Positions 13,995-21,962 of a stretch of 36,460 nucleotides of DNA are shown here, in pieces; position 1 is the stretch's first letter; every line of letters starts with the position of its first letter. The DNA is from a virus. The translations under genes and the position numbers were made by a program. Where the stretch lies: positions 1 through 36,460 of the IMG/VR virus record IMGVR_UViG_3300047546_001245. One strand, given 5' to 3'. The notes below the pieces were generated by a model. It did not search any database, had not been told where the DNA came from, and was given only the letters and a program-made list of their open reading frames with translations.

Positions 13995-14018
13995 GCGGAG
14001 CCAAAACTCCGCTTTTTT
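13995..14018 (+). terminator. Rho-independent terminator
   Basis: The stem GCGGAG (13995-14000) pairs perfectly with CTCCGC (14007-14012) around a six-base loop and is followed by six T. It lies 26 bp after the stop of the 70-residue gene. Confidence 0.88.
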
Positions 14019-14201
14019 GGCTGGTTTTTTGGGCTAATTAGGGAAAATAATTACAAAAATTAAATTTTTTTTATTTAAAGTGCGCCCTGTATTGGCTGAT
14101 TTGGGTGCATAGTTACTTGACTCTTCTCCCACCGCCCGTGCGGAAGTAAATGTGGAGAGAAAAAAAAGAAAGTACGGGGGTGGTCAGAAGTATGCTGCGT
14201 T

Positions 14202-14228
14202 GTCAGGGATAACGGGAGGTTACCTGAC
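14202..14228. repeat. imperfect inverted repeat
   Basis: GTCAGG, a two-base bulge and TAAC (14202-14213) mirror GTTACCTGAC (14219-14228) across five bases. The right arm overlaps the first of the three direct repeats, so a protein binding site or a hairpin is possible. Confidence 0.6.
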
Positions 14229-14297
14229 TACGTTGAATGCATAAGTTTAACTTATCTGACTACGTTGGATGGCAGCCGAAGGTTGCCTGACTACGTT
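14224..14297. repeat. three iteron-like direct repeats
   Basis: CTGACTACGTT occurs exactly at 14224, 14256 and 14287. The spacing of 32 and 31 bp is close to three helical turns, which places the copies on the same DNA face. Flanking bases are partly conserved (GAATG, GGATG, CAAGA after the copies). This fits a cooperative binding site of an initiator or regulator. Confidence 0.75.
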
Positions 14298-14540
14298 CAA
14301 GATACTTCACTGCCTCCGTTTACCCTCAACCTAGTTTCTTTTGCCTACATTTATTTGATTTCGCACGCAATCATTACTGATTTGTGATACGAATTCATAT
14401 CGGTCGAATGCATAATCGTAATTCTGATCAGCCTTTTGGCGAATCGCGGCCCCTCATGGGCGTTACAAAACGGTTCAGCCAAAGGGTTGACAAATTGCGA
14501 CACATGTGCATTCGTTTGTTGTACTCATTTATTTCCTGTC

Positions 14541-14654
14541 ATGGCACAAGAAACTTACACAGATCTTTGCGAAGAATACATCACCGAAGATGAACAAGCT
14601 TTCATCGAATGGTGGGAATCGCAACACCAAGATCTTGATACGGCTGAGGATTAG
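14541..14654 (+). CDS. very small acidic protein
   Basis: A 37-residue acidic product from ATG 14541 (MAQETYTDLCEEYITEDEQA) ends DLDTAED. An in-frame extension to 14436 would add a Cys-rich leader of poor quality. The stop codon TAG (14652-14654) lies inside a tRNA-like element that begins at 14643. No family is recognised. It is the first of a run of short genes separated by structured RNA. Confidence 0.55.
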   Translation: MAQETYTDLCEEYITEDEQAFIEWWESQHQDLDTAED

Positions 14655-14689
14655 GCGTGATGCCGGGGGATCGAATCCCCCACTCAGCA
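14643..14689 (+). ncRNA. mini tRNA-like element 1
   Basis: The acceptor-like stem GCTGAG (14643-14648) pairs with CTCAGC (14683-14688). A small hairpin GGC-GTGAT-GCC occupies 14654-14664. A T-arm-like hairpin has stem GGGGG/CCCCC (14665-14669, 14677-14681) and loop ATCGAAT. A discriminator-like A follows at 14689. There is no anticodon arm and CCA is not encoded. The 5' strand of the acceptor is coding sequence of the preceding gene. Elements 2 and 3 have the same plan with compensatory changes. Confidence 0.75.
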
Positions 14690-14690
14690 T

Positions 14691-14715
14691 TGCCTTCAGC
14701 GGAGATAGGCACCGC
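14691..14715 (+). ncRNA. hairpin after tRNA-like element 1
   Basis: TGCCT (14691-14695) pairs with AGGCA (14707-14711) around an 11-base loop containing GCGG. That loop motif could pair with CCGC at 14712-14715. The loop is almost identical after element 2, while the stem differs by two compensatory changes there. Confidence 0.65.
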
Positions 14716-14731
14716 ACTATCGTTCAGCACA

Positions 14732-14902
14732 ATGCAAATTACCTACGGTCAACTCTTTAAATTTATGGGTACCTTTACCAACCAGCAGTTGGATGATGCC
14801 CAAGTGATTGCAGAAAATCTGCATGAGCGTTTGGGTAAGTCCTACAACCAATGCTTGGTTGACATCCTAGTTGAAATACGCAAGGAACAACTTGCAAGCT
14901 AA
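14732..14902 (+). CDS. small protein, unknown function
   Basis: A 56-residue product from ATG 14732 (MQITYGQLFKFMGTFTNQQL). The middle is helical (DDAQVIAENLHERLGKSYNQ) and it ends EIRKEQLAS. An upstream in-frame start at 14657 would run through the tRNA-like element and is rejected. The stop TAA (14900-14902) lies inside the acceptor stem of element 2. Unknown function. Confidence 0.65.
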   Translation: MQITYGQLFKFMGTFTNQQLDDAQVIAENLHERLGKSYNQCLVDILVEIRKEQLAS

Positions 14903-14946
14903 GTCCGTTAAAGCGGCATGCCTGGGTGCAAACCCCAGGCTTAGCA
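14898..14946 (+). ncRNA. mini tRNA-like element 2
   Basis: The acceptor-like stem GCTAAG (14898-14903) pairs with CTTAGC (14940-14945); a T-G pair can extend it. A small hairpin CCG-TTAAAG-CGG lies at 14905-14916. The T-arm-like hairpin has stem CCTGGG/CCCAGG (14921-14926, 14934-14939) and loop TGCAAAC, close to the tRNA T-loop. A discriminator-like A follows at 14946. The sequence differs from elements 1 and 3 at most stem positions but keeps the pairing. Confidence 0.75.
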
Positions 14947-14947
14947 T

Positions 14948-14972
14948 TACCCCCAGCGGAGATGGGTACCGC
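14948..14972 (+). ncRNA. hairpin after tRNA-like element 2
   Basis: TACCC (14948-14952) pairs with GGGTA (14964-14968) around a loop with GCGG, followed directly by CCGC (14969-14972). This is the covarying counterpart of the hairpin at 14691-14715. Confidence 0.65.
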
Positions 14973-14986
14973 ACAGCAGAAGGGCC

Positions 14987-15223
14987 ATGATTAAGACCCA
15001 GCAGCTTGCACTCGATGCTCAACGCAAAGCTGAATCCATGGGATGGGAAACTTGCATCATATTGGATCAGTCCGATGTCGTTGACTTAGCAACTGTTGTT
15101 GCATGGGCACCAGGTGCAACCCAAGCTCGTTACATTTCCTTCATGGAAGGAAGTGAGAACTGCAAGGGTTGGGTACCTGTTAAGCACATGCATGACAAGC
15201 TTGCGTTTTGGCAAGCACTCTGA
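14987..15223 (+). CDS. small protein, unknown function
   Basis: This 78-residue protein has mixed alpha/beta character: LALDAQRKAESMGWETCIIL (residues 7-26), then strands and a C-terminal KHMHDKLAFWQAL. No signal peptide or membrane segment. The ATG at 14987 follows the hairpin after element 2. The stop TGA (15221-15223) lies inside the acceptor stem of tRNA-like element 3. I do not recognise a family. Confidence 0.7.
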   Translation: MIKTQQLALDAQRKAESMGWETCIILDQSDVVDLATVVAWAPGATQARYISFMEGSENCKGWVPVKHMHDKLAFWQAL

Positions 15224-15265
15224 GTATCAGGCGGGATGCCGGGGGATCGAATCCCCCACTCAGCA
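15220..15265 (+). ncRNA. mini tRNA-like element 3
   Basis: CTGAGT (15220-15225) pairs with ACTCAG (15258-15263). A small hairpin GGC-GGGAT-GCC lies at 15230-15240. The T-arm-like hairpin GGGGG/CCCCC (15241-15245, 15253-15257) has loop ATCGAAT. The T-arm matches element 1 exactly, while the 5' acceptor strand is again supplied by the end of a coding sequence. Confidence 0.72.
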
Positions 15266-15267
15266 TT

Positions 15268-15286
15268 GCTGCTCACTAAGAGCAGC
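15268..15286 (+). ncRNA. hairpin after tRNA-like element 3
   Basis: GCTGCTC (15268-15274) pairs perfectly with GAGCAGC (15280-15286) around ACTAA. It takes the place of the GCGG-loop hairpins found after elements 1 and 2. No T-run follows, so it is not a standard terminator. Confidence 0.65.
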
Positions 15287-15302
15287 TCACTGAACACAAC
15301 TC

Positions 15303-15530
15303 ATGTTCATCTACCAACCTAATATCTACTCCAACGACCGTGTCGTCTGGTATGGAGGTGAATCTACTCAGCTCCATTACGAGACCGAGTCGGTGGATAA
15401 TCACGGCAACCCCCAGTAGGTTGACCGTGCAGTGCGTACTCTTGGCAGTGGTATCCCAACGAGTGTCAGCGAACTTCACGCTGACCTCGTTGATTACTAC
15501 AATTACTGCCAGGTATACGACTTCGAATAA
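15303..15530 (+). CDS. small protein gene interrupted by an in-frame amber codon
   Basis: From ATG 15303, preceded by CACAACTC, the frame encodes 38 residues (MFIYQPNIYSNDRVVWYGGE ...) and meets TAG at 15417-15419. The same frame then stays open for 36 more codons (VDRAVRTLGSGIPTSVSELH ...) to TAA at 15528-15530. The composition after the amber codon remains protein-like and acidic/aromatic. Options are readthrough, a recent nonsense mutation, a sequencing error, or a 38-residue protein with unused downstream sequence. Function unknown. Confidence 0.5.
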
Positions 15531-15531
15531 T

Positions 15532-15585
15532 TCCTGCACTTAGCCCTGTCATTGCACAGGGTTCTCTGCAGGACTTTATATCCTG
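15532..15585 (+). ncRNA. duplicated switch-like RNA element, copy 1
   Basis: The outer stem TCCTGCA (15532-15538) pairs with TGCAGGA (15567-15573). The inner hairpin CCCTGT/ACAGGG spans 15544-15561. The bases CAGGA (15569-15573) can instead pair with TCCTG (15581-15585), which makes a mutually exclusive fold. It begins one base after a stop codon and ends 25 bases before the next ATG. Confidence 0.65.
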
Positions 15586-15610
15586 TTCACAACTCAACTT
15601 AATTCAACTC

Positions 15611-16012
15611 ATGGCTTACGCTGATCTTCAAACCACTACCCTTGTCGGTCGCATTGCCGATCTCACTGTCATTCGCACAGAAGATGATCGGGAATGCCTG
15701 GTTGTTACTGTGTATCACCGCATCTCCTCCGATGCCGTGGTCACAATCAAGTTCCTCAACAGCAACGGATTGCTCACTGCTTACGGCAATGAGAATCTGA
15801 TTGTTGGCCAAGAACTTACCATCAGCGGCAAAATTCAAGGCATTCGTTCTTTCTACATGAAAGACGATGAACTGGTGCCGCTCAAGCAACCAGAACTCCA
15901 AATGAAAGTCACTGATTATGCTTTTGGTTCCAAGCCTCAACCGAAGCCTGAACCCAAAGCTACCTCCAAGAAATCAACGGCACAGCCTACGCTGGAGCCG
16001 ATTGAACTCTGA
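15611..16012 (+). CDS. OB-fold, SSB-like protein
   Basis: This 133-residue protein resembles single-stranded DNA-binding proteins. It opens TTTLVGRIADLTVIRTEDDR (residues 8-27), continues with alternating beta strands (ECLVVTVYHRI, VVTIKFLN), and has GQELTISGKIQ near 66-76, the usual place of the 'G..v.v.G.l' strand of an SSB OB fold. A Pro/Lys-rich linker and an acidic end (TLEPIEL) follow, like a short SSB tail. It would coat single-stranded DNA during replication or recombination. The start ATG follows AATTCAACTC. A second, larger SSB-like protein is at 29688. Confidence 0.6.
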   Translation: MAYADLQTTTLVGRIADLTVIRTEDDRECLVVTVYHRISSDAVVTIKFLNSNGLLTAYGNENLIVGQELTISGKIQGIRSFYMKDDELVPLKQPELQMKVTDYAFGSKPQPKPEPKATSKKSTAQPTLEPIEL

Positions 16013-16017
16013 TTGAT

Positions 16018-16071
16018 TCCTGCACTTAGCCCTGTCATCGCACAGGGTTTTCTGCAGGACTCCACATCCTG
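16018..16071 (+). ncRNA. duplicated switch-like RNA element, copy 2
   Basis: It repeats copy 1 almost exactly: outer stem TCCTGCA (16018-16024) with TGCAGGA (16053-16059), inner CCCTGT/ACAGGG at 16030-16047, and alternative partner TCCTG at 16067-16071. The loop regions differ (ATCG for ATTG; CTCCACA for CTTTATA), whereas all pairing strands are kept. It again lies just after a stop codon and upstream of a start. Confidence 0.65.
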
Positions 16072-16100
16072 CTCATTATTCACACCCAACATCTCACATC

Positions 16101-16295
16101 ATGAAACAAGTAATCAAGCTTGGCATCAACCGTTACATTCATCTTGATTCTTACGGTGAGTCTTATGAGACTCGACCCATTGTCAACTTCCTCGTCTTTC
16201 TCCTTGCCACAGGCATTGGAGCAATGACGGTAGGCGCCACCGTTGGCGTTGACATCACCAACTTCAATTCAACTAACATCCAGAGGATTAAATGA
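16101..16295 (+). CDS. small single-pass membrane protein
   Basis: This 64-residue protein has a polar N-terminus (about 26 residues) and one hydrophobic segment (PIVNFLVFLLATGIGAMTVG, about residues 26-45) with a polar end. There is no cleavage-type signal peptide. Its stop overlaps the next start by 4 bp, so the two are translated together. Role unknown; host membrane modification is one possibility. Confidence 0.65.
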   Translation: MKQVIKLGINRYIHLDSYGESYETRPIVNFLVFLLATGIGAMTVGATVGVDITNFNSTNIQRIK

Positions 16296-16642
16296 CTACA
16301 GCACTGCAAGAACACACAGAATTATTGAATACACGCATCAAACAACTTATTGCTGCTCTCATTGCAAATTATGAGAAGCAATACAACAATTCAAGTTACT
16401 ACCAGAAGGAAGACTTCGATTTCGAAGTTGTCCCTGGGACCAAATACCTGAAACTTATCATGGTTCAGCGTGGTTCCAGGTCCGTTCATGCGTTCATCAA
16501 CAAACAGACTGGTACCGTTTACAAGCCAGCCAGTTGGCGTGCCCCTGCAAAGCATGCACGTTACCAACTGATGGATGACGCATCATTCGAGGAGTGTCTC
16601 AAGCGTGCTGACTGGGCTGGTGGGTATTTATACCTATCGTAA
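16292..16642 (+). CDS. conserved-looking phage protein, unknown function
   Basis: This 116-residue soluble protein has a helical N-terminal third and a compact C-terminal part, with GTKYLKLIMVQRGSRSVHAF (residues 50-69) and TVYKPASWRAPAKHARYQLM (about 75-94), ending in DWAGGYLYLS. I recall proteins with the VYKPASWRAPAK pattern in many phages, all without assigned function. It is coupled to the membrane peptide upstream. Confidence 0.75.
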   Translation: MTTALQEHTELLNTRIKQLIAALIANYEKQYNNSSYYQKEDFDFEVVPGTKYLKLIMVQRGSRSVHAFINKQTGTVYKPASWRAPAKHARYQLMDDASFEECLKRADWAGGYLYLS

Positions 16643-16700
16643 GCCCTGGCTTGCACCTTGACTAGACTCCGCTATTTTAACTTCGTTCCCTACTCAACTC

Positions 16701-17126
16701 ATGGAACTGCTCTCTCAACTCGACGTGGCAAACCCTGATCACGTCTCTGTTATTACCCAGCGTGGTCGTGTTGTGATCTCTGTCCGCAAGGATGGAGCCG
16801 ATGTCACAGTCGGCTTTCCCATCAGTGCGGCAACCTTTGACACAACCCCCAGACCCCCGCTGCAACAGCCACTACCAGTACTTAAATCTATTAGTACTGA
16901 ACCTATGAAACAGTCAGCTGCCACTCGTATGGCAAGAGCTGCTCGTTTCAATGCCAAACTCACCAATCAAACCGCACGTCAAATCAAGGACATGCTGCGA
17001 GACAAAGACATCATGTCGAAGTTTCGCTCCAAGCACCAGGCATACATTCAAATTGGACAGGCTTATGGCGTGAGCAATCACACAGTCCGTTCAATTGACA
17101 ATGGTATTGCCTGGAAAAATGTTTGA
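16701..17126 (+). CDS. probable DNA-binding protein with C-terminal helix-turn-helix
   Basis: This 141-residue protein has an N-terminal beta-rich part (VSVITQRGRVVISVRKDGAD, residues 15-34) and a Pro-rich linker. Its C-terminal module, LTNQTARQIKDMLRDKDIM then IGQAYGVSNHTVRSIDNGIA, matches the helix-turn-helix attached to homing nucleases and phage regulators ('a..ygvs..tv..I..g..W'). There is no nuclease motif, so a DNA-binding regulator is more likely. A later ATG at residue 69 would give only the helical part. The start at 16701 follows CTACTCAACTC. Confidence 0.6.
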   Translation: MELLSQLDVANPDHVSVITQRGRVVISVRKDGADVTVGFPISAATFDTTPRPPLQQPLPVLKSISTEPMKQSAATRMARAARFNAKLTNQTARQIKDMLRDKDIMSKFRSKHQAYIQIGQAYGVSNHTVRSIDNGIAWKNV

Positions 17127-17140
17127 TAGTTCTTTGTAAC

Positions 17141-17231
17141 TACTCAAACCTGGGGTGGTATCACCCACGTCCTGAGTACGCAAAGCGTAGCAAAATTTAA
17201 TGGATTGACTTTGATCTATCTAAGTCAATCC
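17141..17231 (+). ncRNA. structured leader with several hairpins
   Basis: TACTCA (17141-17146) can pair with TGAGTA (17173-17178) around an inner hairpin GGGTG/CACCC (17153-17166). TACGC-AAA-GCGTA (17177-17189) competes with that outer stem. A 10-bp perfect hairpin GGATTGACTT/AAGTCAATCC occupies 17202-17231. The region lies between a helix-turn-helix gene and the gene at 17283. Confidence 0.55.
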
Positions 17232-17244
17232 TTGCTACCTTCGG

Positions 17245-17260
17245 TGACGTTAAACTGCTC
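17245..17260 (+). repeat. degenerate copy of the pseudoknot leader
   Basis: TGACGTTAAACTGCTC is identical to the right half of the pseudoknot at 19628-19654. The upstream TCCTGAGCA is missing, so neither stem can form as in the other copies. The bases before it (TTGCTA, CCTTCG) also resemble that copy, which suggests deletion in a once complete element. Confidence 0.6.
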
Positions 17261-17282
17261 AATTCAATTATCAACTCAGATC

Positions 17283-17489
17283 ATGACCACAAATCAACTC
17301 GACAACAACTACAACGCTGATTTGCTTGATGCCATGGCTGACATGGCGGAAGAGCAATATCAAGCAATGATTGAAACCGATCAGTCCGAATGGACTCTTA
17401 TTGAAGACAATGGCAAGTTCATTGGATTCAACGTTACAAATCGAGAATCTCAATGGGAGGGCGTCATCTATGACGACGAAGATTATTGA
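17283..17489 (+). CDS. small acidic protein
   Basis: A 68-residue product from ATG 17283 (MTTNQLDNNYNADLLDAMAD ...) ends WEGVIYDDEDY. It is strongly acidic. An upstream in-frame start at 17205 would run through the hairpin region and is rejected. The DNA after position 17470 also encodes a hydrophobic frame in another register (see findings). No family recognised. Confidence 0.65.
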   Translation: MTTNQLDNNYNADLLDAMADMAEEQYQAMIETDQSEWTLIEDNGKFIGFNVTNRESQWEGVIYDDEDY

Positions 17490-17567
17490 GAACAATTCTC
17501 AACAAGCAGATGACATTATCATTGTCATCCTCACCATCATCTCAATAATTATCACGGAACTCATCTC

Positions 17568-17903
17568 ATGCTTCACCCAGTCACCCAAGAAATCGCACAA
17601 AGCTTTGGCTATGTCCCTTTCTCAGATGAGGAGGGGCAAGAACAATACCAAGCCGAAGTCACTTACGACAGCAAAAATGGTGGACAGCCTCGTAATGGCA
17701 GCGTCTACCGCAACAAACGAGGCATCCTTCGGTGCTATTGGAAACCCAAGTGCACCGATAAAACTCTCGAAGGTTGGTACGACATCCCAACCAACGAGGA
17801 AATCGAGGAGTGGTCGTTCGACTCAATCTGCTTCACCCCAGGGGAAGACGAAGTCGAACCTGACCATCCCGACAGCTGGCTCTCAATCCTTGGCTTGATC
17901 TAA
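17568..17903 (+). CDS. hypothetical soluble protein
   Basis: This 111-residue protein contains a basic, Cys-containing beta-like centre (NGSVYRNKRGILRCYWKPKC, residues 43-62) and an acidic end. Two cysteines eight or fewer residues apart are not enough for a zinc call. The ATG at 17568 follows GGAACTCATCTC. The next gene starts three bases after its stop. An alternative long frame (17371-17898) covers the same DNA in another register and looks less protein-like. Confidence 0.65.
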   Translation: MLHPVTQEIAQSFGYVPFSDEEGQEQYQAEVTYDSKNGGQPRNGSVYRNKRGILRCYWKPKCTDKTLEGWYDIPTNEEIEEWSFDSICFTPGEDEVEPDHPDSWLSILGLI

Positions 17904-17905
17904 CC

Positions 17906-18172
17906 ATGAATGAATACACACTTATTGAAAACATTCTCAATGAACTCAAAGGAGTTGTCCAACGAGAAGACAAGCGTCATGAAATGGATTGTCATCTGAC
18001 TCCATCCATGCTTGCTCTGTTGGAAGGAGAGATCATTCCTCTGCTTGAGAATGAACTCGACTATGACCCAACTCCTCAACATCTCTATGACAATAACGGT
18101 GGTGAACCAGTGATGTTAGCAGGTGAAATTCATCATGCTGCATGGGTTCAACACCAAGCTCTACACAGTTAA
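17906..18172 (+). CDS. hypothetical acidic protein
   Basis: This 88-residue, Glu/Leu-rich helical protein has NILNELKGVVQREDKRHEMD near residues 9-28 and LLEGEIIPLLENELDYDP near 38-55. It ends HHAAWVQHQALHS, with several His. No family recognised. It is the last gene before the structured RNA region at 18173-18398. Confidence 0.65.
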   Translation: MNEYTLIENILNELKGVVQREDKRHEMDCHLTPSMLALLEGEIIPLLENELDYDPTPQHLYDNNGGEPVMLAGEIHHAAWVQHQALHS

Positions 18173-18184
18173 TTAACTGTTAAT

Positions 18185-18239
18185 GCAAAGGGCTGGTTCG
18201 CATTAGAACCTAAGTCTGGTGCGGCCAGACGCCCTTTGC
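18185..18239 (+). ncRNA. three-way-junction RNA
   Basis: The outer stem GCAAAGGGC (18185-18193) pairs perfectly with GCCCTTTGC (18231-18239). Inside are two perfect hairpins: GGTTC/GAACC (18195-18210) and GTCTGG/CCAGAC (18214-18230). Only four bases are unpaired at the junction. No T-run follows, so this is not a plain terminator. Confidence 0.72.
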
Positions 18240-18249
18240 TTCATCTCCG

Positions 18250-18363
18250 GTGGTTGCCTGCCAACCAACGGAATCCCTTAAACAAGCCACTGGCCAGTGG
18301 GTCTCTGCAGGAGACTCGCTCATTGTAACTCAGTTGCAATGTCCATGGCCGGTGCTTGACATC
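18250..18363 (+). ncRNA. run of further hairpins before the 18399 gene
   Basis: Consecutive pairings after the three-way junction include TGGTTG/CAACCA, the palindrome CCACTGGCCAGTGG, GTCTC-TGCAG-GAGAC, and CATTGTAAC/GTTGCAATG with loop TCA. ATGTC/GACAT is an alternative to part of the last stem. No gene fits in this stretch. Confidence 0.55.
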
Positions 18364-18398
18364 TCTGATAGACTCCAACTTCCATCACACTTCAACTC

Positions 18399-18617
18399 AT
18401 GTCCAAACTCAACGATGCACCCAAGCCACGCATCCCTGATGCAGTGGACTCCCAAAGGCTGCAGGCAATGCAAATAGTTGCCAAGATGAAAGAATCTGCC
18501 GACAAATACGGCATCGGTTTTGTCGGTGGATTCGTCACACCAGACGGTGAAAAGTTTGTGATGTCCAATATGTCTGACGAAGAAACTGAAATGCTTCTTC
18601 CTGAGAACCTCCAATGA
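18399..18617 (+). CDS. small soluble protein
   Basis: This 72-residue protein has a helix (DSQRLQAMQIVAKMKESADK, residues 17-36), a Gly-rich strand pair (YGIGFVGGFVTPDGEKFVMS) and an acidic end. The ATG follows CTTCAACTC. The stop overlaps the next start by ATGA, so the genes are coupled. No family recognised. Confidence 0.7.
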   Translation: MSKLNDAPKPRIPDAVDSQRLQAMQIVAKMKESADKYGIGFVGGFVTPDGEKFVMSNMSDEETEMLLPENLQ

Positions 18618-18925
18618 TCACACCAATGCAACAAGACATGATCGATCAAGTGATCGACATGTTTAACTTTGAGAAGGTACTAATCACAATGCATGCGCTT
18701 GACTGGAAGTGGGTCGAAGAATCAGGTAAAGCTGGTCATTCGGTCCCTTCTATCAAACGCATGAAGAATGCAGCACTCAGATTATTAACCCGCTCTGTTG
18801 CAGACACTTGTTGTGGCAGTGGTGGATTCGAAGCAACTTACTATCCTCCAGATGAGGAGAACAAAGATGGAGCCTTTGCGCTTCGCTTTGTTGTGACGCA
18901 ATCGTTTAGCACAAACGATTGGTAA
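18614..18925 (+). CDS. hypothetical protein
   Basis: This 103-residue protein is helical in the first 65 residues (QQDMIDQVIDMFNFEKVLIT, 6-25). A Cys/Gly patch follows (ADTCCGSGGFEATYYPP, about 63-79), then a beta-like C-terminus (AFALRFVVTQSFSTNDW). No domain I can name. It is coupled to the gene before it. Confidence 0.65.
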   Translation: MITPMQQDMIDQVIDMFNFEKVLITMHALDWKWVEESGKAGHSVPSIKRMKNAALRLLTRSVADTCCGSGGFEATYYPPDEENKDGAFALRFVVTQSFSTNDW

Positions 18926-19627: not shown

Positions 19628-19654
19628 CGTCCTGAGCATGACGTTAAACTGCTC
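19628..19654 (+). ncRNA. H-type pseudoknot leader, copy 1
   Basis: Stem 1 is CGTC (19628-19631) with GACG (19640-19643). Stem 2 is GAGCA (19634-19638) with TGCTC (19650-19654). Loop 3 is TTAAAC. Loop lengths of 2, 1 and 6 are suitable for a classical H-type pseudoknot. It ends 29 bases before the ATG of the PcfJ-like gene. Confidence 0.75.
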
Positions 19655-19683
19655 AACACTACGAACTCAACTCTGAACTCACC

Positions 19684-21682: not shown

Positions 21683-21895
21683 GTGACGGACTACACAGAC
21701 GATCAACTCCTTGCCATGGCACTTGGCAACATCGGTGATTTTCTCCATGACAATTCACCGCATTACGTGTTGATTGAAAATGATCCTCGCAATGAGGATG
21801 ACTACGACACATGGAGTTACGGTACTGAGCCGTTACCCCATGATCACACTTGGCGTTCAATGTCAATTGATGTAAGTCCAAGTGAGCCCGAGTAG
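21683..21895 (+). CDS. small acidic protein ending inside a tRNA gene
   Basis: This 70-residue protein starts at GTG 21683. It is acidic (NDPRNEDDYDTWSYGTEPLP) and ends SPSEPE. The last codons and the stop TAG (21893-21895) lie in the first ten bases of the tRNA-Leu gene, so the 5' acceptor strand of the tRNA doubles as coding sequence. The arrangement repeats that of the three tRNA-like elements at 14.6-15.3 kb. Confidence 0.65.
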   Translation: MTDYTDDQLLAMALGNIGDFLHDNSPHYVLIENDPRNEDDYDTWSYGTEPLPHDHTWRSMSIDVSPSEPE

Positions 21896-21962
21896 CCCAG
21901 CGGTAGTAGGCAAACGACTTAAAATCGTTCCAGCGTGGGTTCGAATCCCACCTCGGGTACCA
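21886..21962 (+). tRNA. tRNA-Leu (anticodon UAA), short variable loop
   Basis: A full cloverleaf: acceptor GCCCGAG (21886-21892) with CTCGGGT (21952-21958, first pair G-T); D arm 21895-21911; anticodon arm AACGA/TCGTT with loop CTTAAAA (anticodon TAA at 21920-21922); five-base variable loop CCAGC; T arm GTGGG-TTCGAAT-CCCAC; discriminator A and encoded CCA (21960-21962). Anticodon UAA reads UUA leucine codons. Leucine tRNAs normally carry a long variable arm, which is absent here. Confidence 0.92.

Follow-up and report, generated by a model that had tools for sequence, protein, structure and literature searches.

In this work we describe a family of small tRNA-like RNA elements at the gene ends of cyanophages. 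The window, i.e. the whole stretch of 36,460 nucleotides (nt) that was analyzed (IMG/VR virus record IMGVR_UViG_3300047546_001245, positions 1 to 36,460), contains three of them, at the first three gene junctions of the zone between positions 14541 and 18398. Each of these mini-tRNAs lacks an anticodon and consists of an acceptor stem and a T-arm totalling 12 base pairs (bp), a seven-base T-loop and a small hairpin resembling a D-arm. About 190 members of this structured RNA family, which is not contained in Rfam, were observed at gene ends of widespread cyanophages, namely in IMG/VR phages and in cultured phages including S-EIV1 and the marine T7-like cyanophages P-SSP7, S-SBP1 and S-CBP42. 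Judging from the sequences, cutting by host RNase Z after the discriminator base would best explain the boundaries marked by mini-tRNAs, a reading in which we have moderate confidence.

The window derives from an S-EIV1-like cyanophage, the nearest sequenced isolate being the freshwater Synechococcus phage S-EIV1 (74% protein identity of the DNA polymerase and 73% DNA identity across parts of the 14.5-18.4 kb region). Genes to the left of about 13.7 kb point leftwards, and a long rightward operon of short genes starts at 14.54 kb; the zone studied here is its beginning. The mini-tRNAs with the folds that follow them, the other folded elements of the zone and the tRNA-Leu all lie on the plus strand, and the folding z-scores of the single elements were calculated against dinucleotide shuffles. 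Copy 1 (14643-14689; minimum free energy -25.0, z -3.78) is composed of an acceptor stem (14643-14649/14682-14688, 6 of 7 positions paired), the D-like hairpin (14654-14664), a T-stem (14665-14669/14677-14681) with the T-loop AUCGAAU and the discriminator A14689, and it contains the stop codon TAG of the gene 14541-14654. It is followed by UU and a pseudoknot (14690-14715 together) with the stems S1 (14692-14695/14707-14710) and S2 (GCGG 14699-14702/CCGC 14712-14715). Copy 2 (14898-14946) is built from P1 (14898-14902/14941-14945), P2 (CCG-UUAAAG-CGG, 14905-14916) and P3 (14920-14926/14934-14940) with the T-loop UGCAAAC and the discriminator A14946; the stop codon TAA (14900-14902) of the gene 14732-14902 lies inside P1. 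UU and a pseudoknot of the same family as the first (14947-14972, the pseudoknot itself 14949-14972; stems ACCC/GGGU and GCGG/CCGC) follow here as well. Copy 3 (15220-15265; minimum free energy -21.2, z -2.53) has its acceptor at 15220-15225/15258-15263, its T-arm at 15241-15257 and its discriminator at A15265, and it includes the stop codon UGA (15221-15223) of the gene 14987-15223; after its UU, a simple hairpin (GCUGCUC-ACUAA-GAGCAGC; UU and hairpin 15266-15286) takes the place of the pseudoknot. Read-through of the stop codons was rejected as a function, as another in-frame stop is met a short way past copies 1 and 2.

A first search pattern derived from copy 2 and S-EIV1 matched more than 100 IMG/VR contigs. 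In an alignment of 55 sequences, in which P1 comprises 5 bp, P2 reads CCG-UYAAAG-CGG and P3 comprises 7 bp closed by the loop UGCAAAC, 98.1% of the cells are paired, and 189 cells show double changes as compared to 50 in shuffles. The covariation score amounts to 0.634; shuffles gave 0.183 and slid controls no more than 0.167. Compensatory changes are found in all five P1 pairs and in six of the seven P3 pairs. The covariance model R1 built from these sequences gave 150 matches, 145 of them distinct, in the 135 contig stretches searched. Copy 2 scored 65.6 bits (E 2.2e-16 in a 404-kb search), a value that is not independent since copy 2 is one of the 55 sequences used to build the model. R1 misses copies 1 and 3, the latter reaching only 4.0 bits; a search with a T-arm pattern assigned both to a separate 7+5 subfamily, which has the proportions of a real tRNA (7 in the acceptor, 5 in the T-stem, loop AUC[G/A]AAU), as distinct from the 5+7 subfamily of copy 2. 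This 7+5 subfamily occurs at about 24 other places besides the window, with at least 25 relatives sharing the layout of copy 1, and shows compensatory changes of its own (GAGGG/CCCUC, AGGGG/CCCCU), including a wholly different acceptor (AGCAGAU/AUCUGCU). A further set of elements carries canonical T-loops such as UUCGAUU. The 2.04 Mb of phage loci searched, which had been chosen for related motifs, contained 183 occurrences of the T-arm pattern combined with a UU[GA]CC tail, and the 0.47 Mb of bacterial control loci contained none. A motif scan of bacterial genomes yielded no convincing copy among 62 pattern matches, the best of which (36 bits, in a Desulfatibacillum metagenome-assembled genome) resembles a chance sequence.

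The strand leading from the T-loop to the discriminator is exactly 12 nt long in 137 of the 150 matches and 13 nt long in 11. Since this is the length of the acceptor/T stack of tRNA, and since it holds for both the 5+7 and the 7+5 split, the elements are tRNA-like. In tRNA, positions 19 and 56 form a tertiary Watson-Crick pair of the elbow (PMC4810234). The equivalent bases of the mini-tRNAs, namely the one that immediately precedes the P2 3' strand and the third of the T-loop, are G-C in 137, A-U in 5 and mismatched in 3 of 145 elements, the A-U cases falling into about three sequence groups (L173/L201, L104 and L063). Furthermore, the base before position 19 is G where U55 is present and A or C where G55 is present. 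Together, these features identify the boundary element as a mimic of the top half of tRNA, with the T-loop predicted to be docked on the D-arm-like hairpin. A canonical cloverleaf with an anticodon arm was called by ARAGORN and Rfam only once in the window, as a tRNA-Leu at 21886-21962. Rfam 15 gave no match to any element of the zone at gathering or permissive thresholds (E<=5, positions 14000-18700), and Rfam models including the glutamine riboswitches and tmRNA gave none at the elements in L232-L235, L043 and L110 (E<=2). In the open literature searched, the scope of which did not extend to subscription journals and preprints, we found no description of mini-tRNA elements. A ribozyme (hammerhead, pistol or hepatitis delta virus type) was rejected, as no conserved core was seen.

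The position of the elements relative to genes is also constrained. A stop codon of an open reading frame (ORF) of at least 20 codons lies within -6 to +13 of the first base of the element in 130 of 140 cases, as compared to 12.9% at displaced control sites, and 105 of these 130 stops start at either of two neighbouring offsets, both within the 5' strand of P1. In the 7+5 subfamily, all 26 scored elements have a stop just upstream of the T-arm, 20 of them at one offset; with canonical T-loops, the upstream stop is in or beside the element in 19 of 19 cases at more varied offsets. The mini-tRNAs are thus tRNA-shaped units at gene boundaries on the coding strand, as in tRNA punctuation. Genomes carry one to seven copies at the stops of short genes, and the strong copies of each S-EIV1-like genome are all confined to a single stretch. 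The true tRNA-Leu(UAA) of the window, which has an encoded CCA and stands at a gene junction, also holds a stop codon (UAG 21893-21895, of the ORF 21683-21895) in its acceptor/D region, and a similar overlap was found in 5 of the 8 relatives' loci examined that have a tRNA-Leu.

Downstream of the fold, 141 of 145 elements have a single base (mostly A) and then UU after the acceptor, and a hairpin or pseudoknot directly follows the UU in 139 of 140. Both stems of the pseudoknot (GCCY-N3-GCGG-AGAU-RGGC-A-CCGC) covary in 25 distinct sequences with 100% pairing; its third loop is only one base long, so that two alternating hairpins are possible instead. The next gene starts at a median distance of 37 nt from the element. 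Relatives with the pseudoknot form often have a palindrome behind it, the two arms of which contain GGAG and the start codon, respectively; behind the simple-hairpin form stands an unstructured CUCAACUCAUG-like leader. Examples of such Shine-Dalgarno/start palindromes, such as CACGGAGAACACCGTG, stand right after the pseudoknot at L077 9424-9450, near L052 10560 and in many other relatives.

In the T7-like cyanophages, the element is found ahead of the capsid gene. It stands between a gene for a short YRGVxY peptide upstream and the capsid gene downstream in P-SSP7, S-SBP1 and IMG/VR marine contigs, the marine copies lying about 100-170 nt before the capsid gene. The S-SBP1 copy spans 1322-1376, and the annotated gene gp02 ends at 1330. 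In S-CBP42, the element separates an ORF whose stop lies inside the element from the major capsid gene; from its place, this ORF would encode the capsid-assembly (scaffold) protein. S-RIP2 has no copy at the capsid-leader position. Upstream of the YRGVxY peptide, a glutamine-II riboswitch (RF01704) is present in P-SSP7 and L043, with a partial, sub-threshold match in S-SBP1. The complete row of riboswitch, YRGVxY peptide, mini-tRNA and major capsid gene was seen at L232 2889-3189, L043 243-540 and L233 2842-3163, the riboswitch match in L233 being partial and sub-threshold. Nitrogen status may therefore affect capsid expression in marine T7-like cyanophages.

A tRNA top half ending in a discriminator and followed by UU instead of an encoded CCA is the layout which cyanobacterial RNase Z meets in pre-tRNAs, and from this layout we infer the enzyme and the cut. 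In the genome of Synechococcus sp. 1G10, an encoded CCA is absent from 39 of the 40 tRNAs examined, 38 of which have a U within the first two trailer bases, so that the 3' end of the mini-tRNAs carries the sequence signature of an RNase Z substrate. Downstream U residues are said, in work by Pellegrini et al. of 2012, to activate RNase Z of B. subtilis. RNase Z cuts directly 3' of the discriminator and is suppressed by following C residues (PMC7479834), the tRNA elbow is read by both RNase Z and the CCA-adding enzyme (PMC4810234), and only one gene for RNase Z is present in cyanobacteria (PMC10989914). Host RNase Z would accordingly cleave after the discriminator base and before UU. The upstream mRNA would retain its stop codon and end in a tRNA-like structure, which could receive CCA and withstand 3' exonucleases. 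The downstream mRNA would begin with UU and a 5' hairpin and might be resistant to RNase E; in E. coli, mRNAs are stabilized by stem-loops at their 5' ends (Emory 1992; Bouvet and Belasco 1992, listed in PMC3997798). A ribosome terminating at the built-in stop would keep the acceptor stem unfolded, and we propose that cutting would therefore wait for its departure. Only tentatively do we extend this to a true tRNA punctuation system, in which the stop codon in the acceptor stem would delay the RNase Z cut until the last ribosome has left, and each small early gene, as well as the capsid gene in T7-like cyanophages, would obtain its own structure-protected mRNA, possibly with CCA at its 3' end.

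Several points weigh against cutting by RNase Z. The acceptor of the main subfamily comprises 5 bp and not 7, with the strand break shifted, and RNase Z might not accept such a substrate. The conserved UU could be a structural linker. Moreover, the R1 profile takes in five bases 3' of the acceptor, which contribute only part of the score, and the regular expression behind some of the relatives itself demanded TT[GA]CC. Most of the sequences are related, so the counts do not represent independent events, and Synechococcus 1G10 is a freshwater Synechococcus that is not a proven host of the window phage.

Some of the observations could also be accommodated by a translational insulator or coupler that acts on the intact message without any cut, either by blocking read-through or reinitiation or by coupling termination to downstream initiation. 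The stop codon fixed within the structure, the short median distance to the next start and the many relatives with GGAG and the start codon in palindrome arms would suit such a function, yet it has no need of a 12-bp ruler, a tRNA elbow or the base followed by UU, nor does it agree with marine copies so far ahead of the capsid gene. We consider it rather unlikely. RNase P, alone or together with RNase Z, might instead excise the element, freeing the downstream mRNA and leaving the upstream mRNA without a stop codon. It likewise reads the acceptor/T stack and the elbow, and the P1/P7 C4 precursor RNA and the T4 gene 32 mRNA are known phage substrates of this enzyme (PMC11143913). However, the G1-C72-like first pair of C4-type substrates does not characterize the 134 elements compared, in which the first acceptor pair is A-U in 79 and G-U in 26 (together 105) and G-C in only 8. 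As the 5' cut would in addition take away the strictly placed stop codon, 3' cutting alone is preferred, and a role of RNase P appears improbable.

We give even less credit to a cis-acting transcription element resembling the put RNA of HK022, in which nascent folds at the start of an early operon make RNA polymerase pass terminators. The single stretch of copies per genome in S-EIV1-like phages, which in both the window and S-EIV1 occupies the junctions where the rightward operon begins, would be in line with this, but the fold is tRNA-like and apparently not put-like, it is tied to stop codons, and T7-like phages have a single copy before the capsid gene in their late region. Finally, the elements might act as DNA, as attachment-site fragments of tRNA genes or as recombination linkers that shuffle small genes. 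The 3' halves of tRNAs are common attachment sites in other viruses (PMC8707807), and near-identical copies do recur next to different genes; nevertheless, the many different stem sequences per genome with compensatory changes and the invariable location on the coding strand at stop codons make a DNA-level role hardly credible. The specific case of a phage attachment site within a tRNA fragment, which would be a single copy identical to a host tRNA and adjacent to an integrase gene, was rejected on the basis of the multi-copy covariation, no direct search for host-tRNA identity having been made.

The original prediction, made from the window alone, had proposed distinct folds at nearly every junction of the zone, and all listed structures are indeed present, with z-scores of the single elements from -2.5 to -5.7; stronger support for them is comparative, through the compensatory changes in the mini-tRNA, the pseudoknot and a three-way junction. 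The folds are, however, of several kinds, since those beyond the first three junctions are unrelated to the mini-tRNAs. Folding of whole junctions gave z < -2 in seven of the nine zone junctions of at least 30 nt. Outside the zone, 39 of 54 junctions are shorter than 30 nt, and z < -2 was likewise obtained for 8 of the 15 that are longer. Thus, the supposition that junctions elsewhere are tight and unstructured holds for their tightness (p = 0.001 for the difference in junction length) but not for the lack of structure, the z difference between the zone and the rest of the window being not significant (p = 0.056). As the genes behind these counts were called by eye from the ORF list, uncalled genes may be hidden in some of the junctions outside the zone. 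The idea that the RNA splits one long early transcript into separate, stable pieces is the best-supported reading at the mini-tRNA boundaries. The suggestion that the peptides matter less than the RNA does not fit the conservation of the small zone proteins as proteins in relatives: two show 59-60% identity, one belongs to a conserved family (MFIYQP...WYGGESTQLHYE), and the gene 16292-16642 encodes a member of the DUF7717 family (PF24835, E 4.5e-34), which has members in other cyanophages too.

Among the other RNA elements, bistable element 1 (15532-15585, z -4.76) forms P1 from UCCUGCA (15532-15538) and UGCAGGA (15567-15573) around AGCCCUGU/ACAGGGUU; alternatively, the 3' strand of P1 can pair, as CAGGA, with the downstream UCCUG at 15581-15585. 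Element 2 (16018-16071, z -4.21) is a repeat of element 1 with 83% identity over 77 nt. As judged by eye, this competition between two pairings recurs in S-EIV1 with other letters, which makes a switch governed by ribosomes on the upstream gene plausible. For a perfect 10-bp hairpin (GGAUUGACUU.../...AAGUCAAUCC, 17202-17231, z -5.12), no homologue was found, the matching place of S-EIV1 again being judged by eye. The three-way junction (18185-18239, z -5.72; P1 18185-18193/18231-18239, P2 18195-18199/18206-18210, P3 18214-18219/18225-18230) has 11 homologues, 9 of them distinct, with compensatory changes in seven pairs and nearly invariant loops, and our guess is a leader that binds a protein or ligand. 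A second recurrent RNA motif, a stem CUNGG/CCNAG around GCAUCC...GGUGUAAGU with a covarying third pair (G-C, U-A, A-U), occurs in several copies per genome, at 21842-21884 of the window just before the tRNA-Leu, in S-EIV1 (L002 5320-5360 and 6010-6070) and in many relatives.

Within the gene 15303-15530, an in-frame TAG (15417-15419) stands where relatives have a tryptophan codon (NPDWID vs NPQ*VD), reflecting either a nonsense change, a pseudogene or a sequencing error. The divergent noncoding region 14217-14300 contains repeats of GGTTACCTGACTACGTT, which are conserved in S-EIV1 (L002 2430-2490) and are possibly promoter or replication-origin repeats. The motif CCUGAGCAUGACGUUAAACUGCUCA recurs upstream of right-arm genes (~19637-19665, ~26130 and ~30745) and in S-EIV1 (L002 7263 and 7987) and is a candidate hairpin or promoter-like element.

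If RNase Z does cut at the mini-tRNAs, phages have evolved, in bacteria and by means of a housekeeping enzyme, a tRNA punctuation of polycistronic mRNA that resembles the one in mitochondria. This would explain how individual mRNA levels, e.g. of scaffold versus capsid protein, are obtained from a compact operon, and it would provide a compact, portable part for splitting mRNAs; the reading can be tested in cultured phage-host pairs.

In mitochondrial tRNA punctuation, RNase P and RNase Z excise tRNAs and thereby free the mRNAs. The phage elements resemble it as tRNA-shaped units on the coding strand between genes, often over the end of the upstream gene, which would set mRNA ends. They differ in that they are not tRNAs and lack an anticodon arm, in that the setting is a phage-infected bacterial host, and in that only 3' cutting makes sense, since the stop codon would be lost on 5' excision. 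In mascRNA/MALAT1-type RNAs and mitochondrial t-elements, a small noncoding tRNA-like fold steers tRNA enzymes to form an RNA end; the phage units, in contrast, are repeated one to seven times per genome at stops, and after an RNase Z cut the tRNA-like part would stay with the upstream mRNA. The C4 antisense RNA of P1/P7, phage M3 RNA and the T4 gene 32 mRNA are likewise phage RNAs shaped as acceptor/T domains and read by a tRNA-processing enzyme, as we infer for the mini-tRNAs, which differ from them by lacking a G1-C72 preference and an encoded CCA and by their multi-copy array and fixed stop overlap. The early polycistronic transcript of T7 is cut by RNase III at intergenic structures into stable monocistronic mRNAs, but those sites are long duplexes, whereas the mini-tRNA is a tRNA mimic and probably a substrate of RNase Z. 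The tRNA-like structures of plant viruses (turnip yellow mosaic virus type) share near-perfect elbow mimicry on a reduced body (PMC4810234); they are aminoacylated and form the 3' end of an RNA genome, whereas the mini-tRNAs are internal to the operon mRNAs of DNA phages. In several marine T7-like cyanophages, the glutamine-II riboswitch is the close upstream neighbour of the mini-tRNA in the capsid leader, yet it is a separate element. Overall, the principle is akin to mitochondrial punctuation and to T7 RNase III processing; what is new is the proposed agent, the lack of an anticodon and the stop codon built into the fold.

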